Positions 1 through 15,730 of a stretch of DNA of 16,125 nucleotides are shown piece after piece (positions within the stretch are counted from its first letter, which is position 1; each line of letters opens with the position of its first letter). The stretch comes from Promethearchaeota archaeon (GTDB lineage Archaea > Asgardarchaeota > Lokiarchaeia > Sigyniarchaeales > SOKP01), in the NCBI GenBank assembly GCA_016840695.1, contig JAEORV010000004.1, forward strand, positions 1 through 16,125, given 5' to 3'. A program made the position numbers and the translations under genes. The notes below the pieces were generated by a model. The model did not search any database and was not told where the DNA came from. It saw only the letters and a program-made list of their open reading frames with translations.

Positions 1-1302
1 TTCATTGTTTCCGTTCTATTTTTAATTCAAACAACGTTGTTTTTAGAATACTCAAGTCTTTTAGGAAGGGGGCGAATCCTCGCATTTATATATATTGAAA
101 TGATAATTTTTTTGTTTTTTTTTGGAATTTTTACCCAAATTGGAGTAACTTCATTTCCAATTTTTTTATATGCTCCTCTTTTCTTCATCGGTTTTGCAAT
201 CTATTTTATCCAAAGAGAAAAACAACTAGAAAAACCACCCCTTAAGCAGCTTAAATTTGAGGAAAGACATGTAAATCTAGAGCTGATAAAGATGTTTTTC
301 TTGATTTTCTTCTTTAGTTTTGCTTTAGGTTTAACAACACCAATTTTCGAAATAAAGGACGCTTTTTTTGCCATGTTTACAGGTCATTTTGAATCCCTCC
401 CCGTGTTAATATTATTCGTACTTATGTTCGTTTTCTCTGCGATAGCCGTTACAATAATCGGTTATGTTTTTGACTTCAAGGGTAGAATGATAACGATCTC
501 AATATTAATTTTGATCATCACAATCGTTAATTTCAGTAATTTATTTGAATTACCAATAGTTCACATGTATGAAATGATAATAATCAGTTTATATGTGGCT
601 GGAGTTATGACCATCTCCTTATTAATAGGCGATATTGCCAAAAGAAAAAATTATAGCAAAGCATTCACTACGGCTATGGCAATCGGAGTTTTTGGATTAC
701 TCAATGGTATAGTAATAGTATATTTTTCCAGACAATTGATACCAGATATAAACAGTTATAACATGGTGATTATCGGATTGCAATATTTAGCATGTGTTAT
801 TACTCTAATTCTCTTAATCAATTCAAAAGAAACATTACCACATAAAGAAATGGAATGGTACGAATCCTTGATACATTTTTATGTGATTCATAAATCTGGA
901 TTGCTTCTTTACGAACATGAATTTATAAAAGTAGAAGAAAGAGCGGAATCAGATTTAGTATCTGGAGGAATCATAGGTCTGACTACGATTCTTGGTGAGA
1001 TTGTAAAAGGAAAAGAGAAGTTAAGGACCATAGATCACGGAGATAAGAAACTGATGTTTAAATATAGCCCAGATAGAGATGTGATATTTGTTCTTTTGAT
1101 TGGAGAAGATCTAATCATGTTAAGGAATAAGTTAGATCTTTTTATAGCGGAATTTATTGACGAGTATCAAGAAAAAGTCGAGAAATTACAAGGAGTAATT
1201 GCTAGCGAATGGGCCGGAGTTTCAAATCTTATTAAAAAGCATTTTTCGAGGAAATATTTTGAAATCCCTTACGAAAAAAGAAGAGCTAAACATGCGCATT
1301 AA
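1..1302 (+). CDS. MFS-like multi-pass membrane protein with C-terminal longin/roadblock-like domain (5' truncated)
   Basis: The reading frame is open from base 1, so the gene begins upstream; the TTG at 37 is not a credible start because hydrophobic residues continue before it. About nine hydrophobic segments cover bases 1-840. The segment GYVFDFKGRM (about 460-490), a charged loop between two membrane helices, resembles the major facilitator motif A (G-x-x-x-D-x-x-G-R), so this is probably the last three quarters of a 12-helix transporter-like protein. After the last helix a soluble domain starts near 870 with IHFYVIHKSGLLLYEHEF and runs to about 1200. Its pattern (strand, 'sGlllY', helix, 'FKYSPDRDVIFVLLIGEDL', long helix) is that of longin/roadblock-like domains abundant in Asgard archaea. 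The tail is basic (KKHFSRKYFEIPYEKRRAK). Substrate is unknown. The cytosolic domain could act in regulation or small-GTPase contact (inference). The fold call rests on pattern only. Confidence 0.72.
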   Translation, partial: FIVSVLFLIQTTLFLEYSSLLGRGRILAFIYIEMIIFLFFFGIFTQIGVTSFPIFLYAPLFFIGFAIYFIQREKQLEKPPLKQLKFEERHVNLELIKMFFLIFFFSFALGLTTPIFEIKDAFFAMFTGHFESLPVLILFVLMFVFSAIAVTIIGYVFDFKGRMITISILILIITIVNFSNLFELPIVHMYEMIIISLYVAGVMTISLLIGDIAKRKNYSKAFTTAMAIGVFGLLNGIVIVYFSRQLIPDINSYNMVIIGLQYLACVITLILLINSKETLPHKEMEWYESLIHFYVIHKSGLLLYEHEFIKVEERAESDLVSGGIIGLTTILGEIVKGKEKLRTIDHGDKKLMFKYSPDRDVIFVLLIGEDLIMLRNKLDLFIAEFIDEYQEKVEKLQGVIASEWAGVSNLIKKHFSRKYFEIPYEKRRAKHAH

Positions 1303-1432
1303 AATAAATTTAAAAAAATCCACAATTTTCCTAGTTTTATAGCGTGAAAACCTCAATAGAAATGGTTAAAAACAAAACTATCTTTATTGTTAAACATAGA
1401 AGTATTAATTAAATTTTTATTCTAATTCGAAG

Positions 1433-1783
1433 ATGAACATAGACAAAGAAGAAGTCACTCGTCGCGCCTTTCAAAGATATAAATCGGGAGAAAGTTACGA
1501 AGATAGTGTTTGGTACCTCGCTGAGCTCAGCGCAAAGATAAATAAAAATATTATCGATGGATATGACATCAAACCTCTAGAAACTGACAACATTATTGTG
1601 CTCTTGAGAGAAGACGTTAATGGCGCAGTAAAGTCGCCGTCTGAAGACGAAATAAAGAAAGTGGCAGAGATAATCCATAACGAAGCGCCCCCAAGGAGTG
1701 AATTACATTGGTTTATAGAGGAAAAATCCCTCCTATTAGAAGAAATTCAAAAAATTATAAATAACAACAAATCAGAAGCCTGA
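1433..1783 (+). CDS. small hypothetical protein with an internal two-fold repeat
   Basis: A 116-residue soluble, charged, mostly helical protein that I do not assign to a named family. It has no signal peptide, membrane segment or cysteine pair. Two parts look like repeats: residues 7-44 and 73-110 both carry E-[VI] followed by Ala (A12, A78), then Trp exactly 15 residues later (W27, W93), then [YF]-[LI]-x-E-x-S. The motif faintly recalls DUF2934-type helical proteins (A...W..AE), but this is too weak for a call. The ATG at 1433 is preceded by an A/T-rich stretch (about 1403-1419) with no Shine-Dalgarno sequence, so translation may be leaderless. It stands alone between the membrane protein and the acyl-CoA dehydrogenase, with a T-tract after it. 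Codon use resembles the neighbours, and I think it is a real gene. Confidence 0.7.
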   Translation: MNIDKEEVTRRAFQRYKSGESYEDSVWYLAELSAKINKNIIDGYDIKPLETDNIIVLLREDVNGAVKSPSEDEIKKVAEIIHNEAPPRSELHWFIEEKSLLLEEIQKIINNNKSEA

Positions 1784-1806
1784 TAACTATTTCTTAAAAA
1801 GAAAGG

Positions 1807-1816
1807 TTTTTTATTC
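1807..1816 (+). terminator. oligo-T terminator of the 116-residue gene
   Basis: A run of six T followed by ATT lies 24 bases after the stop codon of the small gene and upstream of the next promoter. Archaeal RNA polymerase terminates at such T-tracts without needing a hairpin, so this is a likely but unproven 3' end. Confidence 0.35.
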
Positions 1817-1851
1817 ATACTTCTTGTTTCATCTCAATTATTACCAATTCT

Positions 1852-1863
1852 AGTTATATAAAT
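1852..1863 (+). promoter_or_regulatory. TATA box of the acyl-CoA dehydrogenase gene
   Basis: The 12-mer AGTTATATAAAT is a textbook archaeal TATA element and recurs exactly at 6894-6905 before the FAD oxidoreductase gene. With the usual 24-27 base spacing transcription would start near 1880-1885, slightly inside the proposed start codon at 1875. Either the spacing is short here or translation begins at the in-frame ATG at 1923. Confidence 0.6.
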
Positions 1864-1874
1864 AGTGAAAAGTG

Positions 1875-3167
1875 ATGGTAAATACTAAAACAAATTACGC
1901 TCGGGCTATTAACGATGAAATAATGGAAAAGTTAAGCCTTGAAAATAGGTACGCGTTTCTGAACACGAACATGGCATCGATATTAAAGCCTGAAGAAATG
2001 AAATTTCTTACAGAAGTGCAAGATTTCTGCTTGAATTTTGAAAAAGAGAATAATATAACGCACGGAGTCGACGAAGACATCTATGATTGGATTGGAGCGT
2101 TCGGTAAAAAAGGTTACATATGTCGAGCGCATAAATTTGAGGAAATAGACGTGAACAATGATCCATTTGGATTAACTGCAGAACTAATGAGAGCCCTCGC
2201 AATCTGTTATTTTGAACCTCAGCTACTCATGATGTTTGGTGCGACGATTCTAAGCATTAACCCTCTCATGGATCATCATGACAACGTCCCTGTTCGACTT
2301 GATGCGCTTAAAGACTTGGTCACGGGTAATTCTCCGGGTTGCATACTGATAACCGAACCTGAAAGGGGGTCAGATGCAACTCATCAATTAACCACTTGTG
2401 TCCCTCAAGGTGATGGGAGTTTTATACTCAATGGTGAGAAAATATTTAACACTAACGCACCTAAATCGAAATGGGCGGTTGCTTATGCAAGTGCAGAACA
2501 GAACAATTCGGGTAAGATGGCTCAATTTTTAATAGATACTTCGTGGGAAGGATGGAAATGCGAACGTGTATATATCCCATGGGCTCCCAAACTTCATATC
2601 GGTAAGGAATACTTAACTAATCTAAGGATTCCTTCAGATTACGTGTTAGGGGGCGTTGGTAAAGGCAGGGATCACCTCTTTGAAGGGTTAGTGCCAGAAA
2701 GAATAATGATCGCAACACAGAATATTTGTGAAGCATGGACCTCAATAGCGTTTGCATCGATTTATGCGAACATGCGACAGCAATTTAATCAACCAGTTAT
2801 GAAATTCCAAGGTGTCAGCATGTTATTAAGCGAATTATGGGCCCGCACATCTACGTTATTCTATGGTTTACTCAAATTTTGCGAAGATTATGATGCCTTA
2901 AAGGAAAAGCACGGCGGAACAATTCCTCCAAATATAGCAAGAGCTCTAGTTGCTACAGCCAGTCAATTCAAATACACCTGTTCAGATTTAAGTAAAAATG
3001 TTTGTTACGAAGCAGCAAATCTAATGGGAGGCGCAGGACTATGTGATAACACGTTAATGCACGATCTTTTAAACATCTCCCGAATTCAAGAAATTGTTGG
3101 TGGATCCCGGCAAATTCAATTATATATAATGTCGGGCGCTTTGAGTTCCATTTTTAGAAACCTATAA
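1875..3167 (+). CDS. acyl-CoA dehydrogenase, catalytic base of the isovaleryl/long-chain type
   Basis: FAD-dependent enzyme predicted to introduce an alpha-beta double bond into an acyl-CoA in the cytosol, passing electrons to an electron carrier. About 430 residues, slightly longer than typical 380-400 residue members because of about 35 extra N-terminal residues. Numbering from the GTG at 1872, the flavin/substrate signature is TEPERGSD (161-168). R302-QQF begins the family's conserved central helix. GGAG (386-389) and GGSRQIQ (410-416) match the C-terminal signature. The medium-chain-type base (Glu before G-T-x-Q-I-Q) is Gly410. Instead E276 in LVPERIMIA aligns with the helix-G glutamate used by isovaleryl-CoA and long-chain dehydrogenases, so the enzyme is probably active. 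The start is uncertain: GTG 1872, ATG 1875, or ATG 1923 (which better fits the TATA box and still keeps the whole fold). It has its own promoter and terminator and lies just upstream of the thiolase-fold operon. No electron-transfer flavoprotein gene is in the window. Substrate unknown. Confidence 0.92.
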   Translation: MVNTKTNYARAINDEIMEKLSLENRYAFLNTNMASILKPEEMKFLTEVQDFCLNFEKENNITHGVDEDIYDWIGAFGKKGYICRAHKFEEIDVNNDPFGLTAELMRALAICYFEPQLLMMFGATILSINPLMDHHDNVPVRLDALKDLVTGNSPGCILITEPERGSDATHQLTTCVPQGDGSFILNGEKIFNTNAPKSKWAVAYASAEQNNSGKMAQFLIDTSWEGWKCERVYIPWAPKLHIGKEYLTNLRIPSDYVLGGVGKGRDHLFEGLVPERIMIATQNICEAWTSIAFASIYANMRQQFNQPVMKFQGVSMLLSELWARTSTLFYGLLKFCEDYDALKEKHGGTIPPNIARALVATASQFKYTCSDLSKNVCYEAANLMGGAGLCDNTLMHDLLNISRIQEIVGGSRQIQLYIMSGALSSIFRNL

Positions 3168-3172
3168 TTCAC

Positions 3173-3187
3173 TTTTTTTTCTTTTTT
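3173..3187 (+). terminator. oligo-T terminator after the acyl-CoA dehydrogenase
   Basis: Eight T, one C and six more T follow within 6 bases of the TAA stop. No convincing hairpin precedes them. This matches an archaeal intrinsic T-tract terminator and separates the dehydrogenase from the operon at 3362. The rest of the 194-base gap holds a TATA box and nothing else I recognise. Confidence 0.5.
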
Positions 3188-3327
3188 CATTATTAATATT
3201 ATTTTTTCTACCTTAAAAGGAAAGAAGAAAGGTTTTTCTCTATGGATAATGTAAAAAATGGATTTTCTCTCCAATTTTTCAGAATGAAAAGATCAAATTT
3301 TATGAATATTCAAATATGATGACATCA

Positions 3328-3336
3328 CTATATATG
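3328..3336 (+). promoter_or_regulatory. TATA box of the DUF35/thiolase-fold operon
   Basis: CTATATATG is centred about 27 bases before the expected transcription start near 3359, only 3 bases from the GTG start at 3362. No Shine-Dalgarno sequence lies before that GTG, so the first gene of the operon probably has a leaderless transcript. Confidence 0.5.
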
Positions 3337-3361
3337 ATTAATCAAATTTTATAATAAATAG

Positions 3362-3850
3362 GTGAAAAATTTGCCATTAGATTTAGAAAAGATGGAAGGA
3401 GATATTTTTACAAGTAAGGGAATGGTCAAGGCTGAATTTACTTTTTGGGTTGGGTTAGCCATGGATAAATTCTATGATGGCACTACAGATCAAAAATTTA
3501 TTGGTACGAAATGCTCTAAGTGTGGGAAGGTTTTCTTACCCCCGAGGAATAGATGCGGCGATTGTTTTGCAAAAGCAGAGGAATTTGTTGATTTGCCAGG
3601 TACTGCAACATTGAAGAATTTCACGATCACTCCTTGGAAAATTACAGAACGTAGAGCTAAAAAAGGTAACAAAAACGCTCTAGTTGGGTTAGTACAAGTT
3701 GATGGTGCCGATTCTGCCTTCATGACAGAAATCCTCAATACAACAGAAGACAAGTTAGAAGAAGGAATGAAATTGAAGGTAGTATGGGCAAAACGAATAA
3801 AAGGTCATCCGCAAGATATTGCGGGATTTGAACCCGTTGGAGGTGCCTAG
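3362..3850 (+). CDS. DUF35 zinc-ribbon/OB-fold protein, first of the operon
   Basis: A 162-residue protein with a rubredoxin-like zinc ribbon C51-x2-C54-x10-C65-x2-C68 containing the family's PP motif (VFLPPRNRC), followed by an OB-fold (about 80-155) with the typical VGLVQVDGAD strand. DUF35 proteins are non-catalytic partners of thiolase-fold enzymes. In archaea they bridge thiolase and HMG-CoA synthase and bind CoA, and in bacteria they pair with thiolase-like enzymes of benzylsuccinate and steroid degradation. The GTG at 3362 is preferred because it sits a normal distance after a TATA box; an alternative ATG lies at 3392. Its stop is 2 bases before thiolase-fold protein A, and the A gene's Shine-Dalgarno lies in its last codons, so the two are translated from one mRNA and probably form a complex. 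It shares the zinc ribbon with the 6230-6763 protein but differs strongly elsewhere. Confidence 0.9.
   Translation: MKNLPLDLEKMEGDIFTSKGMVKAEFTFWVGLAMDKFYDGTTDQKFIGTKCSKCGKVFLPPRNRCGDCFAKAEEFVDLPGTATLKNFTITPWKITERRAKKGNKNALVGLVQVDGADSAFMTEILNTTEDKLEEGMKLKVVWAKRIKGHPQDIAGFEPVGGA
3839..3844 (+). promoter_or_regulatory. Shine-Dalgarno site of thiolase-fold gene A
   Basis: GGAGGT with 8 bases to the ATG at 3853, embedded in the last codons of the preceding DUF35 gene. It fixes the start of gene A. The same 8-base spacing recurs before 4980 and 6980. Confidence 0.75.
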
Positions 3851-3852
3851 AT

Positions 3853-4977
3853 ATGGAAAGAATAGGAATAGTAGGATATCATCAGGTGAGGCCAGAATTG
3901 GACTTGCAAATGAGCCCATACGAGTGCATATTTACGGCGGTAAGAGGCGCTTTAGATCATGCGGGATTGAAAAGAAAAGACATAACAACGGTAATTTCTG
4001 CTACGAATGATTATTACGACGGAAAAACGATTTCAAATTGCTTCAAAGTTTCGGCTGGCGGAGCTTACATGAAAGACGAGAGTAAAGTGGAGATGGATGG
4101 AGCTCATGCTGCTCAATATGCTATGTTCAGAATACTTAGTCAGAACCATAAGCTCGCAATGGTATATGGTTTTAGCATGCCGTCTTGCATGCCATTTGAA
4201 TGTACCAGAATATTAGAGCTCGATCCTACATTCGATAGGCCAATAAGCTTAATGAACAGCTATTCGACTTGTGGGATGCAGATGAGGGCCTACATGAAAA
4301 AATATGGAGTATCAGAAGAGCAAATCGCTGAAGCTACAGCAACCAACTGGAAAAATGCTGCTAAAAATCCACTTGCCCTGCAGGAAGCTCAAAAAGCTGA
4401 CATGACTGCTGCTGAAGTGTTAAAATCTGACTATTTAGCTTCTCCCTTGAGAGAACTCATGTACCCCTTATTGGGTGATGGATGTACGGCTTTAATTTTG
4501 GCACCAGAAAAACAGGCTTTAAAAATAACAGACAATCCGGTATGGATCACGGGTGTTGGAAACTGCCAAGAAACTTATTACTTTGGCGAACGGGATTTAA
4601 CCACCAGTCTTTCAATGGAAAAAGCTTCAGAAGCAGCTTACAAGATGGCGGGAGTTAAACCATCTGATATCGATGTTGCCGAACTATTCGGATATACGGC
4701 TTGTGAAGACATCATCCTTGCCGAATCTGCTGGATTAGCTGAAAAAGGAAAAGGTGATTCGTTAGTTGCAAAAGGTTGTTTAAATCCTTCTGGAGGGGCT
4801 ACATCGGGGATGACGCCTTGTGCTACTGGTTTGAATAGAATAATCGAAGCGGTTAAACAACTTAAAGGTGAAGCTGAGGAACATCAAGTATCAGGAGTTA
4901 AAAAGGCCATAGCATCGGGACAAATAGGTTTTTGTGCTCAAAATAATATAATATATGTTTTAGAAGGAGGTAACTAA
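3853..4977 (+). CDS. thiolase-fold protein A (SCP-x-like) without canonical catalytic residues
   Basis: A 374-residue member of the SCP-x/archaeal thiolase-like branch. Fold landmarks are the GIVGYHQVRP start, the VEMDGAHAAQYAMFRI nucleophile-elbow region (79-94), LLGDGCTALIL (206-216), the DVAELFGYTACEDIIL loop (275-289) and the NPSGGATSG loop (311-319). In true thiolases the elbow holds Cys in V-E-x-x-C-A-S-G; here Gly83 occupies that place. The usual G-H-P-x-G-A-T-G histidine is Met320 (GMTPCATG). C361 in GFCAQNN may align with the second catalytic cysteine, but the usual glycines are Q and N. Classical condensation or thiolysis is therefore unlikely. Cysteine-less relatives such as the Ltp2 aldolase use tyrosines on the 275-330 loops; Y281 is a candidate, by inference. 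The gene is flanked 2 bases away on each side by DUF35 and thiolase-fold gene B, so a hetero-complex is likely. The name 'acetyl-CoA acetyltransferase' would probably be misleading. Confidence 0.85.
   Translation: MERIGIVGYHQVRPELDLQMSPYECIFTAVRGALDHAGLKRKDITTVISATNDYYDGKTISNCFKVSAGGAYMKDESKVEMDGAHAAQYAMFRILSQNHKLAMVYGFSMPSCMPFECTRILELDPTFDRPISLMNSYSTCGMQMRAYMKKYGVSEEQIAEATATNWKNAAKNPLALQEAQKADMTAAEVLKSDYLASPLRELMYPLLGDGCTALILAPEKQALKITDNPVWITGVGNCQETYYFGERDLTTSLSMEKASEAAYKMAGVKPSDIDVAELFGYTACEDIILAESAGLAEKGKGDSLVAKGCLNPSGGATSGMTPCATGLNRIIEAVKQLKGEAEEHQVSGVKKAIASGQIGFCAQNNIIYVLEGGN
4964..4971 (+). promoter_or_regulatory. Shine-Dalgarno site of thiolase-fold gene B
   Basis: AAGGAGGT with 8 bases to the ATG at 4980. 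It overlaps the last codons of gene A and supports translation of both from one transcript. Confidence 0.78.
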
Positions 4978-4979
4978 AT

Positions 4980-6233
4980 ATGTGTGCTAAAGTACAACCT
5001 GCAGTAATAAGTGCTGGTTTTTGCGAACATGCTTCGAAGCGTTCTGATGTGAACATGGCAGAATTGGTTAACGAAGCGGTTGAGGATACCATCACAAAAG
5101 CGGGAATCGAATGGAAAGACATTGATTGCGTGATAAACGGAAATATGCCCGCATTTGAAGGTGCTAACATACCCGAACTGTGGATGACTGACCATATGGC
5201 CTCCAAGAATAAGCCATTCTTGCGCGTGACGACTGGAGGTACGACTGGAGGTTCAGTAACGATCGCTGGATATTATGCCATTGCTTCTGGAATGTACGAA
5301 ACCGTGTTGGCGATTGGTTTTGAACAGCAATCGTGTGGTGATACATCTATGGGATTAGCTTCAGTGGCGCTAGGAGAATTTTCAATCATGCCAGAGTTAG
5401 GATACGAATACAACAAGATAGTATCTAACATGGGTGCGGGCGCAGCTATTGGTATTGCCTCTTATCAAGCCATGAGCTACATGAGGAGAAGTAGGGCAAC
5501 TGAAGAAGATCTGGCTCGCGTTGTCGTCCAAAACAGGCGAAACGCTGCTAAAAACTGGTATACCCACTTAAAAATGCCAACCGTTACAATCGAAGACGTA
5601 TTAGATACGCCATATATCTCGTTTCCATTAAGATATGGGATGGTTTGTCCTGCTACAGACGGTGCATGTGCAATGCTCTTTACAACTGAAGAAAAAGCAA
5701 GACAAATCGCAGATATTCCCGTGTATGTTAACGGAGTTGGAAGTTATAGTAATGAAAGTGCCGTATTAGCGGCTGATTGTGCTGGTGCTGGACAAGTAGA
5801 TCCCTCTGAACAATTAGGTGCAATGAAATCCGCAGAAGTTGCATACGGACAGGCGGGTATATCTTTCCCGAATAAAGAAATCGATTACGCAGAGGTCTAT
5901 GCGCCTTTTCCAAACCAAGAACTCATGTGGGTGGAACGAGTGGGATTATTTGAAGAAAATACCGCAGCAGAAGCCTATGAACAAGGCATTACCGCTCTAA
6001 ATGGTGAATTGCCAATAAATTGTTCTGGTGGTGTGAATTCAACCAATGCAATTGGGGCTTCAGCAATGGAAAGACCCGCAGAGGCAGCATTACAAATCAT
6101 GGGGAAAGCTGGAAATCAAGTGCCAAAAACAGTCCATACAGCACTAGGACACGGGTGGGGTGGTGCTGTCAACCTAATCACTCACTTAGTCATGTCGGAC
6201 GAACCACAGAGAAAATTTAAGGGAGGTAGGTGA
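4980..6233 (+). CDS. thiolase-fold protein B (SCP-x-like), cysteine-less active site
   Basis: A 417-residue thiolase superfamily protein, normal length for the SCP-x branch. The elbow region reads RVTTGGTTGGS (82-92): the position of the nucleophilic Cys (V-x-x-x-C-A-T-G-S in SCP-x thiolase) is Gly87. The loop normally holding G-H-P-x-G-A-T is STNAIGAS (354-361), with Asn356 in place of His. The C-terminal catalytic C-x-G is ALGHGWGG (388-395), so the cysteine is lost but the glycines and a nearby H391 are kept. The EVYAPFPNQELMWVERVGL segment (305-323) retains the tyrosine-containing loop typical of SCP-x-like proteins. The elbow GG-TT-GGS is well formed, suggesting that CoA ester binding persists. 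It overlaps the downstream DUF35 start by 4 bases (GTGA) and follows gene A by 2 bases. A two-chain thiolase-like complex with one or both DUF35 proteins is the most economical reading. Reaction unknown: aldolase, decarboxylative condensation, or a non-catalytic scaffold. Confidence 0.87.
   Translation: MCAKVQPAVISAGFCEHASKRSDVNMAELVNEAVEDTITKAGIEWKDIDCVINGNMPAFEGANIPELWMTDHMASKNKPFLRVTTGGTTGGSVTIAGYYAIASGMYETVLAIGFEQQSCGDTSMGLASVALGEFSIMPELGYEYNKIVSNMGAGAAIGIASYQAMSYMRRSRATEEDLARVVVQNRRNAAKNWYTHLKMPTVTIEDVLDTPYISFPLRYGMVCPATDGACAMLFTTEEKARQIADIPVYVNGVGSYSNESAVLAADCAGAGQVDPSEQLGAMKSAEVAYGQAGISFPNKEIDYAEVYAPFPNQELMWVERVGLFEENTAAEAYEQGITALNGELPINCSGGVNSTNAIGASAMERPAEAALQIMGKAGNQVPKTVHTALGHGWGGAVNLITHLVMSDEPQRKFKGGR
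6221..6227 (+). promoter_or_regulatory. Shine-Dalgarno site with awkward spacing before the second DUF35 gene
   Basis: GGGAGGT lies only 2 bases before the overlapping GTG at 6230 but 14 bases before the ATG at 6242. Neither matches the 8-base spacing used by the other genes here, so the true start of the second DUF35 protein is not settled by this site. Confidence 0.6.
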
Positions 6234-6763
6234 AAAGAAAAATGCCATTACCAGATTACGAGAAAAAGCAATACAAAGTAACAAGAACCATGCCAGGAGC
6301 TTGGTATCTTTCCAATTATAAGTATAAATTCAATTTATCTAGAATGAGAATAATGCTTAGAGGATTTAAAGAAGGGAAGATTCTTGGAGTGAAATGTAGG
6401 GGGTGCAATCACGTGTCGTTTCCTCCAAAATTAATCTGTGGAAGATGCCTTGTAATGCCAGATCAATGGGTAACGCTACCTGATACTGGATCGGTTGCAA
6501 CAGGTTCAGGGTCTCCTAGAACTGATCAAGAGACCGGTGAAATAGTAATAGATCCTGTTATTCTTGTTCGACAGGACGGAGCGGACACAGTTTGGATTCA
6601 TAATCTCCCAGAGAATTATTCATTCCACGATGTATATATCGGAATGCCGATAAAAGTCCATTGGGCTGAAGAATTAAAAGGTTTATGGAGTGATATCGAG
6701 TATTACGATCCTATTGAAGACATGGGAGACAAGATTAACAAAGAAGAGCTAGCAAAAAAATAA
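6230..6763 (+). CDS. DUF35 zinc-ribbon/OB-fold protein, last of the operon
   Basis: A 177-residue protein. The zinc ribbon C56-x2-C59-x10-C70-x2-C73 (CRGCNHVSFPPKLICGRC) is followed by an OB-fold (about 82-160) with VILVRQDGAD and a terminal acidic-basic tail. About 55 residues precede the ribbon, including a basic N-terminus and an aromatic stretch (GAWYLSNYKYKFNL) that may form the long helix or hairpin DUF35 proteins use to dock on thiolase partners. Its GTG start overlaps the TGA stop of thiolase-fold gene B by 4 bases, implying translational coupling; ATG 6242 would give a product 4 residues shorter. The protein is clearly diverged from the first DUF35 protein, which argues that each serves a different thiolase-fold subunit or that they form a mixed bridge. 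Expected to be cytosolic and non-catalytic, with roles in CoA-substrate binding and complex assembly. Confidence 0.9.
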   Translation: MKRKMPLPDYEKKQYKVTRTMPGAWYLSNYKYKFNLSRMRIMLRGFKEGKILGVKCRGCNHVSFPPKLICGRCLVMPDQWVTLPDTGSVATGSGSPRTDQETGEIVIDPVILVRQDGADTVWIHNLPENYSFHDVYIGMPIKVHWAEELKGLWSDIEYYDPIEDMGDKINKEELAKK

Positions 6764-6775
6764 AAAATAAAAAAC

Positions 6776-6813
6776 AAGCCTTCGTGGCTTTTCAAATTTT
6801 ATTTTCTTTTTTT
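6776..6813 (+). terminator. hairpin plus T-rich terminator of the operon
   Basis: The inverted repeat AAGCC-TTCGT-GGCTT (6776-6790) forms a 5-bp stem with a 5-base loop, followed by T-rich sequence with a run of seven T. It lies just after the second DUF35 stop and is the only hairpin-type terminator I can see in the window; the others are plain T-tracts. Confidence 0.55.
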
Positions 6814-6893
6814 ATTCTATTTTTAAAAACACTTCGAAAAAGGGACATGTTGATGCACTCGTTTTATTATTCTTCATAATTTCATGAAAAAAA

Positions 6894-6905
6894 AGTTATA
6901 TAAAT
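6894..6905 (+). promoter_or_regulatory. TATA box of the FAD oxidoreductase gene
   Basis: AGTTATATAAAT is identical to the element at 1852-1863. It predicts transcription from about 6925-6930, leaving a leader of about 50 bases that contains a Shine-Dalgarno site. The remainder of the 216-base gap (6764-6979) holds only the terminator and AT-rich sequence. Confidence 0.6.
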
Positions 6906-6966
6906 GATAACAAATAAAGTATTATTCTGATGAACAAAGAATAAAGACAATTCACACTAAAAAAAC

Positions 6967-6971
6967 GAGGT
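6967..6971 (+). promoter_or_regulatory. Shine-Dalgarno site fixing the TTG start at 6980
   Basis: GAGGT with 8 bases to TTG. The frame begins MTKENVIIIGAGIGG, placing the Rossmann glycines at the usual distance from the N-terminus, so the TTG start is well supported. Confidence 0.65.
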
Positions 6972-6979
6972 AAAATATC

Positions 6980-8494
6980 TTGACGAAAGAAAATGTTATT
7001 ATTATAGGAGCTGGAATTGGTGGGCTGGCTTGTGGTGCATTACTCGCACAAGCAGGGCATAAAGTTTTGATATTAGAAAAAAATTCATATATTGGCGGTG
7101 CTTGCAGTTCATATGAAAAGAATGGCTATCTTTTTGATAGAGCAGTGCACATATTTTCTTCTGGATTGAATGGGCAATATGGTGTCGTGTTTAAAAGGCT
7201 GGGATTGGATTACTTACAGTTAAGAGAACATGTCAACGAAATCACGGCAATGAAAATATATAAGCAAGAGGGGTATGTACAATATGATTTTAATGTGAAT
7301 ACTGCTCTTAAAAGTATACAAGCTTCCGCTCAAAAAAAGGGGGGAAGTGGGGCAGGAGGTGGCTCTGGTAAAGGGATGATGGACTCATTGAAAGGCTTGG
7401 GCTTTACTAAGAACACGGTGAAAGAGTTAACTGTTGTAATGTCGAATATCATGGGGATGACTAAAAAGAAATTAAGGGAATTGTATGAAGAGGGAATAAC
7501 AGTCACGCAATGGTTAAATAAATACACGGAAGATCCAGCCATTCACGGATTTATTGCATTTGCTACAGCCGCAATGTTTTGTATTGGTAATGGTAAAGCA
7601 AGCGCAGCAGAATTTATTCATTGCTTTAAAGGTGAAATGATGACAGAAGAAGGCATGCATTACCCCATAAGTGGAGCTGCGCAACACATTCCAGATGCAA
7701 TGGCCAGGGGATTTAAACATTACGGTGGCGAAATTCGAACGAACACGCCTGTAAAAAGCATTGTTATCAAGGGAAATAAGGTACAAGGTGTCATGGTTGG
7801 CGATGAACTGATTGAAGCACCAATCGTTGTCTCAAATTTATCAATAAAATGGTCAGTGCTTAATTTAATTGGACGGGATTACTTCGAAAAATCATATATA
7901 GACAAGATTGAAAGCTTGACACCTTCTCTATCCTCGATAACTTTCAAGCTCGCTTTGAAAAAACCATTGGTTGAGCATTGGGGGTTTGTAAATTGTTATC
8001 ATAAAACGTTACACGATTTCGCTGATAGATACCCGCCAGAAAAAGGATATCCTTTTTCAAATGGATTTTTTGGACCTATTCTATCAAATCTTGACCCAAA
8101 AACGGCACCTCCAGGATGTCAGAATGCAATTTTTGGAACGCTTGTCCCATCGAAAGGACCAGATTGGAAAAAATGGACAGATGTTTATTGGGAAGATCTT
8201 AAAACTTTTTTCCCAGACTTAGAGAAAAATCTAGATTTCGTAGATATTTCATATCCTAAAGATATATCGGCCTCAACTGGGAAACCCGAAGGACCTGTTG
8301 AAGGTTTAGCTCTCACGCCATCGCAGACGGGAAAAAATAAACCTTCCTCAATAATTCCTGGAATTGAAGGATTGTACGTGGTTGGAGATACCGCAGGGAA
8401 AAACGCTCACGGAATAGGTACCCAGGAAGCGTGCCATTCAGGAGTCATGTGTGCCGATGCAATTTTAGGAAACATAACTTTTGATAAGATTTAA
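6980..8494 (+). CDS. FAD-dependent oxidoreductase, phytoene desaturase / retinol saturase family
   Basis: A 504-residue flavoprotein of the CrtI/CrtISO/RetSat group (COG1233-like). The N-terminal dinucleotide-binding motif GAGIGG (10-15) is followed by the ribose-binding acid in ILEKN and the IGGACSS continuation. The C-terminal FAD motif GLYVVGDTAG...GIGTQEACHSG covers about 464-486. Members desaturate, isomerise or saturate polyene or isoprenoid chains. The substrate here cannot be read from sequence, and in an archaeon side-chain reduction or desaturation of isoprenoids is as likely as carotenoid chemistry. A glycine-rich stretch (KKGGSGAGGGSGKG, residues 119-132) interrupts the substrate domain and looks like a flexible linker or loop. 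No signal peptide or clear membrane helix. It has its own TATA box, Shine-Dalgarno and TTG start, and follows the thiolase-fold operon. No carotenoid synthase gene is nearby, so the context favours acyl or isoprenoid lipid metabolism (inference). Confidence 0.85.
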   Translation: MTKENVIIIGAGIGGLACGALLAQAGHKVLILEKNSYIGGACSSYEKNGYLFDRAVHIFSSGLNGQYGVVFKRLGLDYLQLREHVNEITAMKIYKQEGYVQYDFNVNTALKSIQASAQKKGGSGAGGGSGKGMMDSLKGLGFTKNTVKELTVVMSNIMGMTKKKLRELYEEGITVTQWLNKYTEDPAIHGFIAFATAAMFCIGNGKASAAEFIHCFKGEMMTEEGMHYPISGAAQHIPDAMARGFKHYGGEIRTNTPVKSIVIKGNKVQGVMVGDELIEAPIVVSNLSIKWSVLNLIGRDYFEKSYIDKIESLTPSLSSITFKLALKKPLVEHWGFVNCYHKTLHDFADRYPPEKGYPFSNGFFGPILSNLDPKTAPPGCQNAIFGTLVPSKGPDWKKWTDVYWEDLKTFFPDLEKNLDFVDISYPKDISASTGKPEGPVEGLALTPSQTGKNKPSSIIPGIEGLYVVGDTAGKNAHGIGTQEACHSGVMCADAILGNITFDKI

Positions 8495-8547
8495 TGCCAA
8501 AAAGAATATTGACAATAAAGAATCTATACTCTTGTAAGAATCCAAGA

Positions 8548-8562
8548 TTTTTTATTTTTTTT
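8548..8562 (+). terminator. oligo-T terminator after the FAD oxidoreductase
   Basis: Six T, A, then eight T, 54 bases after the stop codon and before the next TATA box. A weak CTTG/CAAG inverted repeat (8531-8546) precedes it but is too short to insist on. Confidence 0.45.
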
Positions 8563-8587
8563 CATATTTCACTATTCAATTTGTACC

Positions 8588-8596
8588 ATTATAAAA
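8588..8596 (+). promoter_or_regulatory. probable TATA box of the first TLP1-like gene
   Basis: ATTATAAAA lies about 19 bases (centre) before the ATG at 8611. This implies transcription starting at or just beyond the ATG region and no room for a Shine-Dalgarno site, so the transcript is probably leaderless. Spacing is slightly short, so the assignment is moderate. Confidence 0.4.
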
Positions 8597-8610
8597 AAAA
8601 AGTTTAAAAC

Positions 8611-10125
8611 ATGAGTAAAAAGCTCATTCCAGTTATCATTGGCGCTGCTCAGTTCACCCAGAGAAAAGACACGCCTCATCCGCTTGATCCACTTAAATTA
8701 GTTGCTCAAGCGTGCCAAAAAGCTATAGAAGGCACTGGAAATGATAATATAAAATCTTACATAGATACTCTTTATATGACGACCATTACTAGCTGGATTT
8801 ATGCTGATCCTCCAGGTGAACTATGCGAAATTATCGATATACGCCCTAATAATATAGATTACGTGAAAGTAACAGGTAGTGCACCTCAAGCATTAGTGAA
8901 TAAAGCTGTTCATATGATTTCAAAGGGAAGGAGTAAAATCGCATTAATTACAGGAGGAGATGCATATTACTCGAGATATCGACGAGCAAGGCACAATCTC
9001 GAATTAGATTGGCCAAAAGTTTCAAAACAAGTAGTAAATGAAGCTCGACGTAAAGCTTATAACAATTATTTAAATGAATTAGAAATTAACTATAACTTCA
9101 ATAATGCTACAAATGTATATGCGCTAATAGAGACCGCTTTACGGAATGCTTCAACTCACAGTTTTAGCGAACACTTACAACAGATAGGAGAACTTTATTC
9201 ATGTTTTTCGAAAATTGCGTCAGAAAATCCATATGCATGGAGTCGGAAATCTTTTAATACTAAAGAAATTATCACACCCTCACCAGATAATCGTAAAGTA
9301 TGTCACCCATATACAAAACGCATGGTTGCAAACATTTTTGTAGATCAAACCGCGGCTTTATTGATTACTAGCGAAAATTTTGCTGAGGAGTTAGGAATTG
9401 ATCAAAATCTATGGGTTTATCCATTGGGGGGCGTTGATCTTAACAATATATTTTCCATTTCTCAACGCCCTCGACTACACGATTCGCCCGCGATTAGGCA
9501 TGCATCTAAACTCGCTTTAGAACAAGCAGGTCTAACGCTCGATGACATTGATGCGTTTGATCTCTATAGTTGTTTTCCGTGTATGGTTGAGATTGCGAGG
9601 AAAGAAATTGGCATACCAGAAAATGATAAAAGAGATTTGACACTAACGGGGGGCCTCTCATTTTTTGGCGGACCTTTTAGTAGTTATTCACTGCATTCAA
9701 TTGTAACAGCCGTAGATCTCATTCAATCGAAACCGTCCATGAAAATAATGGTGTTAGCTAATGGGGGATATAATACTTCTCAGTCAATCGGAATTTACGG
9801 AAAAGATCGCCCCGCTAAATCACGGCTCGAAACCAATTATGCTAATATTCAAGAAAAAATCGATGCAGAAGCCTTACCTTACCCTCTTAATGAAGCTCAT
9901 GGTCGTATAACTATTGAAGCTTACACGTTTATTTACGATCGACAAGGGCAAATAGAGAGAGGAATTGTAATCGGTCACATGGAAGATGGAAGTCGTACAC
10001 TTGCCCACATTGACTCTGAATCGATACTTATTAAAGATGTAGAGCAACAAGATCTTGTTGGAAAGACTTATAAAATAGAATATGATGCTAAATTCAAGCT
10101 CAACAAGATAACTCTTACTGAATAA
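8611..10125 (+). CDS. thiolase-like protein type 1 (TLP1) family, copy 1
   Basis: A 504-residue protein, about 100 residues longer than ordinary thiolases. It has the thiolase fold in about residues 5-400 plus an extra C-terminal domain (about 434-504, beginning ITIEAYTFIYDRQG and ending VGKTYKIEY) matching the TLP1 additional C-terminal domain. The elbow reads VTGSAPQALVNKA (87-99), where the family has G-x-S-P-Q and thiolases have Cys, so the nucleophile is absent. The C-terminal loop reads GGLSFFGGPFSSYSLHS (347-363), replacing G-H-P-x-G. The last catalytic region is ANGGYNTSQ (383-391), also without Cys. TLP1 proteins bind CoA-type ligands but no thiolase reaction has been established for the family; the mycobacterial TLP1 structure is monomeric. 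Expected to be cytosolic. It is followed after 158 bases by a close paralogue with its own promoter. The DxYSCFPC segment (317-324) gives two conserved cysteines that are not at the thiolase positions. Confidence 0.87.
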   Translation: MSKKLIPVIIGAAQFTQRKDTPHPLDPLKLVAQACQKAIEGTGNDNIKSYIDTLYMTTITSWIYADPPGELCEIIDIRPNNIDYVKVTGSAPQALVNKAVHMISKGRSKIALITGGDAYYSRYRRARHNLELDWPKVSKQVVNEARRKAYNNYLNELEINYNFNNATNVYALIETALRNASTHSFSEHLQQIGELYSCFSKIASENPYAWSRKSFNTKEIITPSPDNRKVCHPYTKRMVANIFVDQTAALLITSENFAEELGIDQNLWVYPLGGVDLNNIFSISQRPRLHDSPAIRHASKLALEQAGLTLDDIDAFDLYSCFPCMVEIARKEIGIPENDKRDLTLTGGLSFFGGPFSSYSLHSIVTAVDLIQSKPSMKIMVLANGGYNTSQSIGIYGKDRPAKSRLETNYANIQEKIDAEALPYPLNEAHGRITIEAYTFIYDRQGQIERGIVIGHMEDGSRTLAHIDSESILIKDVEQQDLVGKTYKIEYDAKFKLNKITLTE

Positions 10126-10159
10126 ATAGATTAAAAGCTATATTATTTATTTAACATCC

Positions 10160-10167
10160 TTTATAAA
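10160..10167 (+). promoter_or_regulatory. candidate distal TATA box upstream of TLP1 copy 2
   Basis: TTTATAAA fits the archaeal consensus well, but it would give a leader of about 95 bases without a Shine-Dalgarno site. The weaker box at 10256 is better placed, so this one may be an alternative promoter or chance. Confidence 0.3.
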
Positions 10168-10254
10168 TGTTCTCATTACTGGTTATCATTAATGTATAAT
10201 GTTTAAATAATTGCCAATATTTACATCATACACATACTTCAAGATTTTTTAAAA

Positions 10255-10264
10255 TAGTATAATA
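10255..10264 (+). promoter_or_regulatory. probable proximal TATA box of TLP1 copy 2
   Basis: TAGTATAATA is centred about 24 bases before the ATG at 10284, matching the spacing expected for a leaderless transcript. No Shine-Dalgarno sequence is present before the ATG. Confidence 0.4.
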
Positions 10265-10283
10265 AACATAATACGCAAGAAAA

Positions 10284-11795
10284 ATGAGAAAAGAAGCTAT
10301 TCCAGTAATTATTGGTGCTGCTCAGTTTACCCAGAAAAAAGATACAACTCATCCCCTTGATCCGCTCAAATTAGTTGCTCAAGTATGTAAAAATGCTCTA
10401 GCTAACACGGGAAATGAGAGTGTAATCTCTCACATAGATAGTCTATACATGACAACAATTTCTAGCTGGATTTATGCTGATACTCCTATTAACCTATGTG
10501 AAACTCTCGATATTCATCCTAAAAATATAGAATACATGCCAATAACCGGTAGCGCACCTCAAAAGTTAGTAAATAAAGCAGCAAATTCGATTGCAAGTGG
10601 TAAGAGTAAAGTCGTGCTAATAACGGGGGGAGATGCATATTATTCGAAACACCAACGAACAAAAAACGGATTCAAGTTAGACTGGCCAAAAGTATCATTG
10701 AAAGTAAGAAATGATGCTCGTAAGGCATATGTCAGTTATCTCAATGATTTGGAGTTTAGATATAATTTTAATAATGCTACGATAGTGTACGCTCTTATTG
10801 AAACCGCTTTAAGGGATGCTTCTCAACACGGTCTTAATGAACATTTACAGAAGATTGGAGAGCGTTACGAAAGTTTTTCGAAAATTGCGTCAAAAAATCC
10901 TCATGCTTGGAGCCAAACTTCTTATAAAGCTGAAGAGATAATCACCCCCACCCCTGAAAATCGTAAAGTATGTTATCCATTTACAAAACGCATGGTTTCA
11001 AACCTTTATGTAGATCAATCTGCGGCTGTAATAATGACTAGCGAGGATTTTGCTGAGGAATTAGGAATTGATAAGGACCTCTGGGTTTATCCGATGGGAG
11101 GGGCAGATCTTGATAATATTTTTGCTATTTCTCAACGACCTCGACTATACGATTCGCCCGCCATTAGGGAGGCCTCTAAACACGTCCTGGAACATGCAGG
11201 TCTAACGCTCGATGAAATTGACTCATTTGATCTCTATAGTTGCTTTCCGTGCATGGTTGAGATTGCGAGAAAAGAAATTGGAATACCCGAAAACGATAAA
11301 AGAGACTTGACTATCACAGGTGGGCTCTCATTTTTTGGCGGTCCCTTTAGTAGTTATTCCTTACATTCAATTGTAACCGCCGTAGATCTCATTCAATCGA
11401 AACCTTCTATGAAAATCATGGTGTTAGCAAATGGAGGGTACAACACTTCCCAGTCCTTTGGAATTTACGGTAAAGATCGTCCTGCTAAATCATGGCTCGA
11501 AAATAACCATGCTAAGGTTCAAGAAGCAATCGAAGCTGAAGCCTTGCCTGAGGCTATAGTTGAAGCAAATGGAAATATGACGATTGAAGCCTATACCTTT
11601 ATTTACGATCGGCAAGGATCAATACAGAGAGGTCTTGCCATAGGTCACATGGAAGATGGAAGACGAGCTCTTGCTCAAATTGACCCTAAATCAATACATG
11701 TGGAAGATGTAGAACAACAAGATCTTGTTGGAAAGACTTATAAAATCGAATATGATAATAAAGCCAAGCTCAATAAGATAATTCTCGCTGAATAA
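10284..11795 (+). CDS. thiolase-like protein type 1 (TLP1) family, copy 2
   Basis: A 503-residue tandem paralogue of the protein at 8611-10125, aligning end to end with one single-residue deletion (ARRKAY against ARKAY) and roughly two thirds identity by eye. The elbow TGSAPQKLVNKA and the loop GGLSFFGGPFSSYSLHS are kept, so the missing cysteine and histidine are shared. The extra TLP1 C-terminal domain is complete (TIEAYTFIYDRQG to VGKTYKIEY). An 89-residue block (about 315-403) is almost invariant between copies while flanks diverge, and most DNA differences there are synonymous, which points to purifying selection rather than very recent duplication. The two copies may have different substrates or form a heteromer (inference). 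The gene is convergent with the minus-strand flavin oxidoreductase, 33 bases away. Not a pseudogene: the frame is intact and key loops are conserved. Confidence 0.87.
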   Translation: MRKEAIPVIIGAAQFTQKKDTTHPLDPLKLVAQVCKNALANTGNESVISHIDSLYMTTISSWIYADTPINLCETLDIHPKNIEYMPITGSAPQKLVNKAANSIASGKSKVVLITGGDAYYSKHQRTKNGFKLDWPKVSLKVRNDARKAYVSYLNDLEFRYNFNNATIVYALIETALRDASQHGLNEHLQKIGERYESFSKIASKNPHAWSQTSYKAEEIITPTPENRKVCYPFTKRMVSNLYVDQSAAVIMTSEDFAEELGIDKDLWVYPMGGADLDNIFAISQRPRLYDSPAIREASKHVLEHAGLTLDEIDSFDLYSCFPCMVEIARKEIGIPENDKRDLTITGGLSFFGGPFSSYSLHSIVTAVDLIQSKPSMKIMVLANGGYNTSQSFGIYGKDRPAKSWLENNHAKVQEAIEAEALPEAIVEANGNMTIEAYTFIYDRQGSIQRGLAIGHMEDGRRALAQIDPKSIHVEDVEQQDLVGKTYKIEYDNKAKLNKIILAE

Positions 11796-11800
11796 AAAGT

Positions 11801-11817
11801 AAAAAAAGATAAAAAAA
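11801..11817 (-). terminator. T-tract terminator of the minus-strand flavin oxidoreductase gene
   Basis: On the minus strand the 33-base convergent gap reads seven T, ATC, then seven T, directly downstream of the stop codon. This is a strong archaeal T-tract terminator. The plus-strand gene would have to terminate in the T-rich end of the opposite gene (11822-11836). Confidence 0.5.
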
Positions 11818-11828
11818 TCCATTTAATT

Positions 11829-12860
11829 CTATTTTATATAGCTAACAGCTTTTTTCAAGTGAATTTCAGCATCGCTTACGATGGTTTCGATAATATCCTT
11901 TACGTGTTCAAGGCTATTTATCGCACCAATGCTCTGTCCTAGTGGAACTGCTCCGTCTTCTATCTTTCCGTCGTAAATCATCTCGTAGTATTTTTGATCT
12001 TCAATCAAATCTTCCAAAGATAATTCCTCTTCTTCGGCAATCTTTTCTTGTTTACTTCCAACTAAACCGTGATGGGCAGTGTAATTGTTGTTCCATAATC
12101 TAATTGGAGCTAAAAATCCTGTAACTAAGGTGGTATCCGTGGCTTTAGCTGGAGGTACTACCGCTTTATATCTTTCGTGAAATTCGCTCTCTATTGAGGC
12201 TATAAATCTTGAACCCATTGCTATTGCTCCTGCGCCCGCTGCTAACGCGCTTGCAAGCCCAAATCCGTTTGCTAATCCTCCACACGCGATTATTGGAAAG
12301 TCTGGATATTGTTGTTTGATTTGCTGCAACAAGACTAACAATCCAATTTTTTCATACGCTTGATGTCCTCCTCCCTCGGTACCAGTAACGACCAAACCAT
12401 CTACGCCCGCATCAACACATTTTCCAGCTAACCAAAAAGCAGGAGCAACGTGAAAGTTTTTAATTTCCGATTTAGCTTTTAATTTTTGGTATGCTTTACT
12501 CCCTTGCAACATCCTTGCCGTACCAGCACTAGTGATAGCATAGCGCACTTGCTCCTTTAATTTTGGATTACTCATGATAAACTTGGGTATCTGCCTGCAA
12601 AGCGTTTGGGCATCAGGTTGCATTCGTGCCGTTCTAATGTTGAATCCAAAGGGTTTATCCGTGTGTTCGATGACGTGTAGCATGTTTTTTTTCATTTCTG
12701 CAACGCTTATTTTTCCAAATAAGTTCGTGTGGCTTAATGTGCCACATCCTCCAGCTTCTGATACCGCAATTGTCAACTCCGTGGTATAGAATGGACCCAT
12801 AGGAGCTCCAAAAATGGGATGCTTGATCCCAAACATTTTAGTTATATCTGTTTCAATCAT
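11829..12860 (-). CDS. NAD(P)H-dependent flavin oxidoreductase / nitronate monooxygenase family
   Basis: A 343-residue FMN-binding TIM-barrel protein. The N-terminus ITKMFGIKHPIFGAPMG matches the family opening (L-G-I-x-x-P-I-x-x-A-P-M-G). GTEGGGHQAY (160-169) holds the conserved histidine (H166) at the flavin. ACGGLANGFGLASALAAGAGAIAMGSRF (192-219) is the phosphate-binding end of the barrel; it is conserved throughout. The family includes nitronate monooxygenases but also FabK-like enoyl reductases and many 2-nitropropane dioxygenase-like oxidoreductases of unknown substrate, so the common name should not be taken as function. Next to CoA-thioester genes an enoyl- or oxo-acyl reductase-like role is possible (inference). 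The ATG at 12860 is chosen because it gives the family's normal N-terminus and lies 24-27 bases from a TATA-like box; a GTG at 12872 would add four residues. It is divergent from the beta-mannosidase gene. Confidence 0.88.
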   Translation of the reverse strand: MIETDITKMFGIKHPIFGAPMGPFYTTELTIAVSEAGGCGTLSHTNLFGKISVAEMKKNMLHVIEHTDKPFGFNIRTARMQPDAQTLCRQIPKFIMSNPKLKEQVRYAITSAGTARMLQGSKAYQKLKAKSEIKNFHVAPAFWLAGKCVDAGVDGLVVTGTEGGGHQAYEKIGLLVLLQQIKQQYPDFPIIACGGLANGFGLASALAAGAGAIAMGSRFIASIESEFHERYKAVVPPAKATDTTLVTGFLAPIRLWNNNYTAHHGLVGSKQEKIAEEEELSLEDLIEDQKYYEMIYDGKIEDGAVPLGQSIGAINSLEHVKDIIETIVSDAEIHLKKAVSYIK

Positions 12861-12879
12861 GATATTTCTCACTTTTGCT

Positions 12880-12888
12880 TTTTATTTA
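12880..12888 (-). promoter_or_regulatory. TATA-like box of the flavin oxidoreductase gene
   Basis: On the minus strand the sequence reads TTTAAATA, centred about 25 bases before the ATG at 12860, which fits a leaderless start there rather than at the GTG at 12872. Confidence 0.4.
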
Positions 12889-12964
12889 AAAAACTAATAA
12901 TAGCATCTATACTTAAAATGTTAAAAACTTTTTACTTAATAGAAAATTTCATCAGTGAGTGAAC

Positions 12965-15607: not shown

Positions 15608-15637
15608 AAATTCGAAAATAATATCTCTCACTACAGA

Positions 15638-15652
15638 TTTATTTTTTTCTTA
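15638..15652 (+). terminator. T-rich terminator after the beta-mannosidase
   Basis: ATTTATTTTTTTCTT lies about 30 bases past the stop codon, with seven consecutive T. No hairpin is evident. It precedes the promoter of the next gene. Confidence 0.4.
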
Positions 15653-15679
15653 ATAGTGTGAGTTATAATTGAATCAATA

Positions 15680-15691
15680 ATAATATATATA
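15680..15691 (+). promoter_or_regulatory. TATA box of the edge gene
   Basis: ATAATATATATA lies about 45 bases before the TTG at 15731. It would place the transcription start near 15712, giving a short leader without a Shine-Dalgarno sequence. Confidence 0.45.
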
Positions 15692-15730
15692 GAAAAACAT
15701 TGAAATGATACTTATTACTGGTTATTAGAT

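Follow-up and report, generated by a model that had tools for sequence, protein, structure and literature searches.

In this work, we describe a four-gene set in a 16,125-nucleotide (nt) stretch of DNA from a Promethearchaeota archaeon (contig JAEORV010000004.1, positions 1 to 16,125), referred to below as the window, and propose that the four genes, D1-A-B-D2, encode a single heteromeric enzyme. Two thiolase-fold proteins, A and B, would form a pseudo-dimer flanked by two DUF35 proteins, D1 and D2, with B as the catalytic subunit and A as a degenerate one, and the assembly would perform a retro-aldol reaction on a branched beta-hydroxyacyl-CoA. We put the probability of this reading at about 50%. 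That the four products belong to one complex is well but indirectly supported by gene order, co-occurrence, fusions of DUF35 domains, the phylogenetic tree and the active-site residues. The stoichiometry, the role of B as the active subunit, the pairing of each DUF35 with a thiolase-fold subunit, and the reaction with its direction are what we infer, the retro-aldol chemistry by analogy with known aldolases. The genes are as follows:

3362..3850, + strand: D1, a DUF35 subunit (ChsH2-like zinc ribbon plus OB fold), 162 amino acids (aa), start unsure
3853..4977, + strand: A, a degenerate thiolase-fold subunit, Ltp4-like, 374 aa
4980..6233, + strand: B, the presumed catalytic thiolase-fold subunit, Ltp3-like, 417 aa, with Gly87, Tyr307, Pro309, Asn356 and His391
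6230..6763, + strand: D2, a second DUF35 subunit, 177 aa, overlapping B by 4 nt

The preliminary description of this DNA had reported four tightly packed genes, and the co-directional open reading frames (ORFs) indeed have junctions of +2 nt (3850/3853), +2 nt (4977/4980) and -4 nt (6230-6233). GGAGGT-like motifs are found ahead of A, B and D2; the start of D1 was marked unsure because it is a GTG with no such motif visible ahead of it. The description was also right in that the two thiolase-folds are unlike and the two DUF35 proteins strongly different, since A and B are 26% identical over 377 aligned positions, and D1 and D2 30% over 123. D1 matches the Pfam family PF12172 (zf-ChsH2) with 39.8 bits and the OB domain PF01796 with 23.4 bits, below the cut-off of 27.1, and its best PDB sequence match is 3irb. 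D2 matches PF12172 only (30.0 bits); the hidden Markov model (HMM) of its family aligns along other DUF35 proteins, the OB part included. All four zinc-ribbon Cys are conserved in the family alignments (n=25), both in D1 (C51, C54, C65, C68) and in D2 (C56, C59, C70, C73). B matches PF22691 (92.9 bits) and PF00108 (45.8 bits); its AlphaFold2 model, with a predicted local distance difference test (pLDDT) score of 57.8, was too poor for a structure search.

Homologues were sought in 97 genomes (relatives and the window's own genome) at a threshold of E<=1e-100. A and B gave 52 matches each, and the same 47 of the 97 genomes hold both. Gene order was counted by tblastn, with D1, A, B and D2 required to be consecutive on one strand and within 400 nt; this count supersedes an ORF-picking count (46/50), because antisense ORFs masked genes at some loci. 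The D1-A-B-D2 order is retained at 49 of the 52 orthologous Asgard loci. At two of the exceptions (L046, L053) a contig end interrupts the locus, and the L046 genome has its B match on another contig. At the third (L082) the contig stops on the D1 side, and some 3.2 kb separate B from D2, with three extra ORFs in between (2675-5649), one of which has a sub-threshold HNH endonuclease match; this may be a mobile insertion. The genes flanking the quartets vary (SepF, nitronate-monooxygenase-like, acyl-CoA dehydrogenase, beta-keto acid cleavage enzyme (BKACE), beta-eliminating lyase, AMP ligase) while the order of the four is kept, so the conservation exceeds chance. The position of SepF next to 18 of the 46 complete quartets was put down to location. 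Five genomes, the window's own included (contig C263, L050), carry two quartets each. Presence among relatives is patchy, as the two same-genus genomes searched gave no match at E<=1e-100. In Mantel tests over 46 quartets, the distances of all six gene pairs correlated (r 0.85-0.94, 0/999 shuffles each); these values, obtained without an unlinked control gene, fit inheritance as a unit and are silent on the pairing of DUF35 proteins with subunits.

As noted before, neither thiolase-fold protein has the catalytic Cys. In B its position is taken by Gly87, as in all 23 B rows of a broad alignment; A has the stretch EMDGAH there, without Cys. Furthermore, Tyr307 of B stands at the His/Tyr of the HDCF/YDxF motif (20/23 rows), Pro309 at its Cys (22/23) and Asn356 at the His of GHP (23/23), and His391 is retained in 17/23. 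G87, Y307, P309 and N356 are invariant in 50 aligned sequences, and the AExYxPF-type motif was present in 78/78 bacterial and 50/50 Asgard B proteins examined; in seven of those 50, His391 is replaced by Ser, and in one it was unread. A has Met320 at the GHP His position and no fixed residue at position 307 (Phe 7, His 5, Tyr 4, Ser 2, Thr 2, Ala 2, Glu 1; n=23). Single thiolase-folds (n=26) have His at position 356 in all 26, His at position 307 in 22, and Cys in 13 or Gly in 8 at position 87. An assignment of A or B as a thiolase, SCP2-type or degradative, was rejected on the missing nucleophilic Cys and the missing GHP His. Several listed homologues are named 'acetyl-CoA C-acetyltransferase', which is doubtful because the Cys is missing.

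In a quick maximum-likelihood tree of 82 thiolase-fold proteins, the 23 B rows (Asgard, haloarchaea, Actinomycetota, Betaproteobacteria) formed one clade with a Shimodaira-Hasegawa-like approximate likelihood ratio test (SH-aLRT) value of 99, and the 26 single thiolase-folds a separate clade, also with 99. The 23 A partners fell on one side of a branch with SH-aLRT 89, below the 95 mark, with weak inner forks and several long A branches. The A-B distances over the 23 broad pairs correlate (Mantel r 0.76, 0/999 shuffles). Taken together, the tree grouping and the correlated distances suggest that A and B split before the pair spread among Asgard archaea, haloarchaea, Actinomycetota and Betaproteobacteria. 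Five loci (L071, L141, L142, L147, L151) carry an adjacent thiolase-fold pair of another type, which groups apart in the tree and was excluded from the 23-row residue counts and from the broad pairs; its B rows have Gly/Tyr/Pro/Asn in 5/5, and such a heteromer may have arisen a second time here, unless these are misplaced relatives.

A second Asgard set comprises 29 loci with a more distant A-B pair, whose A is 35-40% identical to that of the window. The layout is A-B-D-D at 22 of these and D-A-B-D at two; three (L066, L074, L122) have a single ORF of 319-332 aa that spans both DUF35 domains and keeps the zinc Cys of each, and at the remaining two a single DUF35 was seen, at a contig end or with another ORF next to it. 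On plasmid records (best 30 per search, eleven examined), the A-B pair was found in Actinomycetota, Betaproteobacteria and haloarchaea among the matches listed. Streptomyces clavuligerus, Tsukamurella and Nonomuraea have a double DUF35 (299-339 aa), then A, then B; the Cupriavidus order is A-B-D-D. Bacterial genome contigs were scanned with the Tsukamurella A, so that the best 80 loci (79 actinomycete and one Acidobacteriaceae by title) sample the close relatives of a single query. In all 80, two DUF35 domains lie in a single ORF at most 1.3 kb upstream of A, and in 77 B follows within 250 nt downstream of A; two of the other three stop at a contig end (L224, L227), and in the last (L163) B lies about 1.6 kb further on. 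The earlier statement that bacterial sets have one of each component therefore does not hold for these relatives. The fusion of two DUF35 domains in two distant lineages argues that they belong to one assembly.

In the three actinomycete double DUF35 proteins examined (L075, L076, L077), the first half lacks the zinc-ribbon Cys, while the Asgard fusions retain both sets. D1 and D2 could not be assigned to the halves of the bacterial double DUF35, as each HMM matches both. Three further bacterial loci (L154 7081-9679, L155 4922-7675, L156 5072-7666) combine a B-like thiolase and one DUF35 with an A partner of 304-356 aa; annotated as 'hypothetical protein' (2) or 'thiolase family protein' (1), these partners are strongly degenerate A subunits.

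The structural model for the proposed enzyme comes from the aldolase CtSal, in which a dimer of Sal carries a DUF35 domain on either side, and where, according to the authors, Gly at the nucleophile position excludes thiolysis, with Tyr302 as the base and Cys304 as the acid (PMC12329534). The quartet would keep this alpha-beta-beta-alpha architecture, DUF35 and thiolase-fold taken twice, with both halves diverged into D-A.B-D, such that D1 and D2 would each bind one thiolase-fold subunit. Since Gly87 replaces the nucleophilic Cys, B should not perform thiolysis. Instead, Tyr307 may serve as the base for the beta-hydroxyl group of a branched beta-hydroxyacyl-CoA and drive a retro-aldol cleavage to a short acyl-CoA and a carbonyl product. 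Candidates for the general acid are His391, a residue contributed by A, and a water molecule bound to Asn356. A would be degenerate and structural, making up the other half of the dimer. The order of the genes, D1-A-B-D2, parallels this architecture, which may be a coincidence because other lineages use A-B-D-D or D-D-A-B.

The reaction could be brought closer by way of Rhodococcus erythropolis (L198), where the double DUF35 is adjoined on its other side by an oxidoreductase of the TIGR03559 F420_Rv3520c family (500.7 bits, cut-off 335), and where an acyl-CoA ligase, a P450-like gene and a FabK-like gene lie near the A-B set. A published gene list gives Rv3520c as an F420-dependent oxidoreductase, Rv3521 as a conserved hypothetical, Rv3522 as ltp4 and Rv3523 as ltp3 (PMC6429209). 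Judged from its gene content, the Rhodococcus locus is syntenic with Rv3520c-Rv3521-ltp4-ltp3, and the names Ltp3 and Ltp4 are applied here through this synteny, not through direct comparison with the named proteins. Ltp3-Ltp4 is described in a review as a heteromeric aldol-lyase that cuts the C24-C25 bond of campesterol and sitosterol side chains (PMC6678751); this assignment goes back to genetics of 2012, as cited by PMC6273163 and PMC4761994, and both proteins are reported as needed for the degradation of branched side chains in Rhodococcus (PMC6273163). By this comparison, a homologous operon of like composition is already partly characterised, which corrects the earlier view of the set as one of unassigned chemistry: the nearest bacterial homologues have been called an aldol-lyase. 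The preliminary description had held that a characterised homologous operon with a known reaction would speak against it; Ltp3-Ltp4 comes near to being one, with an assignment that rests on genetics. The quartet is best classed as an archaeal form of the module made up of Ltp3-Ltp4 and a double DUF35. Among the papers listed, our literature search, largely without subscription journals, showed none on a D1-A-B-D2-type set in Asgard archaea and none on a tandem DUF35 beside Ltp3/Ltp4.

Several observations weigh against a heteromeric retro-aldolase with B as the active subunit. The Tyr307 position is Phe in 3/23 B rows, and B shares its Gly at the nucleophile position with 8/26 single thiolase-folds; the counts for the latter make Gly alone non-diagnostic, and Tyr-x-Pro with Asn diagnostic. 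B lacks the general acids of both characterised aldolases, having Pro309 at the position of CtSal Cys304 and Asn356 where alignment and residue spacing would place TcLtp2 Tyr344. Only one DUF35 lies beside A-B in the two haloarchaea examined and in some bacterial sets. The window's proteins also miss NCBIfam cut-offs that the Rhodococcus pair passes with 643.4 (A, NF005924) and 749 bits (B, NF006180): A scored 183.7 bits against NF005924 (cut-off 419), and B 369.2 against NF006180/PRK08313, its best NCBIfam model (cut-off 514). Finally, deletion of ltp3 or ltp4 in Mycolicibacterium neoaurum is reported to leave the formation of 4-HBC from phytosterols in place (PMC10398937), so this branched-sterol product does not strictly require either protein in that species.

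The same data can be read in other ways. We regard as unlikely that the genes encode two homomeric alpha2-beta2 complexes, one of A and one of B, each with its own DUF35, which catalyse successive pathway steps and are only transcribed together. All structurally characterised relatives that we considered do have one kind of thiolase-fold subunit with DUF35, and a pathway operon would fit the conserved order and correlated distances too, because the Mantel test had no unlinked control gene. What argues for a single assembly is the DUF35-DUF35 fusion in the 80 bacterial and three Asgard loci, along with the strict co-occurrence of A and B; together with the 49/52 order, these findings also support, if indirectly, the one machine of the preliminary description. 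Moreover, with no Cys nucleophile and with differing residues at the Tyr position, A is unlikely to be a second active enzyme.

A heteromer with Claisen, acyl-transfer or other C-C bond-forming chemistry, like the PhlACB-type acyltransferases, seems quite unlikely, as there is no Cys nucleophile in A or B, and the neighbouring genes suggest catabolism (acyl-CoA dehydrogenase, AMP ligase, enoyl-CoA hydratase, BKACE). The Pfam scan revealed no PhlA-like gene in the set, which thus lacks the partner resembling 3-hydroxy-3-methylglutaryl-CoA (HMG-CoA) synthase, and the PhlACB-type enzymes are fold neighbours only. The degenerate thiolase-folds might even form a non-catalytic carrier or sensor of acyl-CoA or lipids, given that no known catalytic set is complete in A or in B and that NCBIfam names the A-like family 'lipid-transfer protein'. 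We consider this very improbable in view of the strongly conserved active-site residues and AExYxPF-type motif of B, and of the reported requirement for both Ltp3 and Ltp4 in Rhodococcus.

The surroundings of the quartet contain the following genes:

1872..3167, + strand: acyl-CoA dehydrogenase-like gene, upstream, a possible pathway partner (Pfam PF00441, PF02770)
6980..8494, + strand: phytoene-desaturase-like flavin adenine dinucleotide (FAD) oxidoreductase, downstream, a possible pathway partner (Pfam PF01593, PF13450)
11829-12872, - strand: nitronate-monooxygenase/FabK-like gene

Homologues of the first lie within six genes of A in 6/49 quartets, and those of the last in 9/49. The phytoene-desaturase-like protein scored 107.9 bits against TIGR02734, below the cut-off of 238.1, and its glycine/serine-rich stretch KKGGSGAGGGSGKG resembles a linker or an insertion. 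Next come two thiolase-like genes in tandem (8611-10125 and 10284-11795), very similar to each other and both with the TLP1 additional C-terminal domain; their nearest NCBIfam model is PRK08257, and they score below its cut-offs. Overall, the neighbours of the quartets point to acyl-CoA catabolism. BKACE genes lie within six genes of A in 21/29 second-set modules vs. 12/49 quartets; with this low count, and as the enzyme was neither seen in the window nor found in the window's own genome (74% complete), BKACE was dismissed as a fixed partner of the quartet. A recurring Asgard block (L055 2945-8984 and similar) of an acyl-CoA dehydrogenase, a 473-aa thiolase-fold protein, a 200-aa protein without a Pfam match and BKACE adjoins both quartets and second-set modules.

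A bolder and quite unlikely extension is that the Asgard D1-A-B-D2 set and its A-B-D-D paralogue are heteromeric retro-aldolases dedicated to branched acyl-CoAs, perhaps of isoprenoid origin, from which they would yield acetyl- or propionyl-CoA and a beta-keto acid for the neighbouring BKACE. If true, this would be a cross-domain route around HMG-CoA-lyase-type chemistry, with the sterol use of Ltp3-Ltp4 as one special case. These archaea are not known to live on sterols. The comparison in any case links an archaeal operon that lacks a helpful annotation with a bacterial sterol module on which little work has been done, and shows 'two thiolase-folds with DUF35 partners' to be a class in Asgard archaea, haloarchaea, Actinomycetota and Betaproteobacteria, with a residue signature of its own in B. 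This turns the matter into a testable question: is A a pseudo-enzyme partner and B an aldolase, and what is cut in archaea?

Among known systems, the archaeal complex of thiolase, HMG-CoA synthase and DUF35 was discarded, as no HMG-CoA synthase Pfam match was found among the ten window proteins scanned. The benzoylsuccinyl-CoA thiolase BbsAB likewise pairs a DUF35 with a thiolase-fold gene but has one of each, and was rejected since A and B scored only 73.7 and 73.9 bits against the BbsB model (cut-off 750), and D1 18.7 against BbsA (cut-off 250). The steroid aldolases Ltp2-ChsH2 and Sal-Shy, where ChsH2 and Shy are the DUF35 partners, resemble the quartet in combining a thiolase fold with DUF35, and B has their Gly (stated for CtSal) and the Tyr at the YDxF position; A does not keep that Tyr. 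Unlike the quartet, they have a homodimeric thiolase-fold core, and their general acid, Cys304 in CtSal or Tyr344 in TcLtp2, is in neither case present in B. The closest likeness appears to be to Ltp3-Ltp4 with the double DUF35 (Rv3521-Rv3522-Rv3523 type, Actinomycetota). D1 and D2 of the window are separate and flank A-B, whereas the actinomycete DUF35 pair is one upstream chain, and the window has no sterol context. Just as in the actinomycete type, however, A is followed by B and accompanied by two DUF35 domains, both A and B fall with the bacterial A and B rows in the tree, and B shares the Gly/Tyr/Pro/Asn positions.

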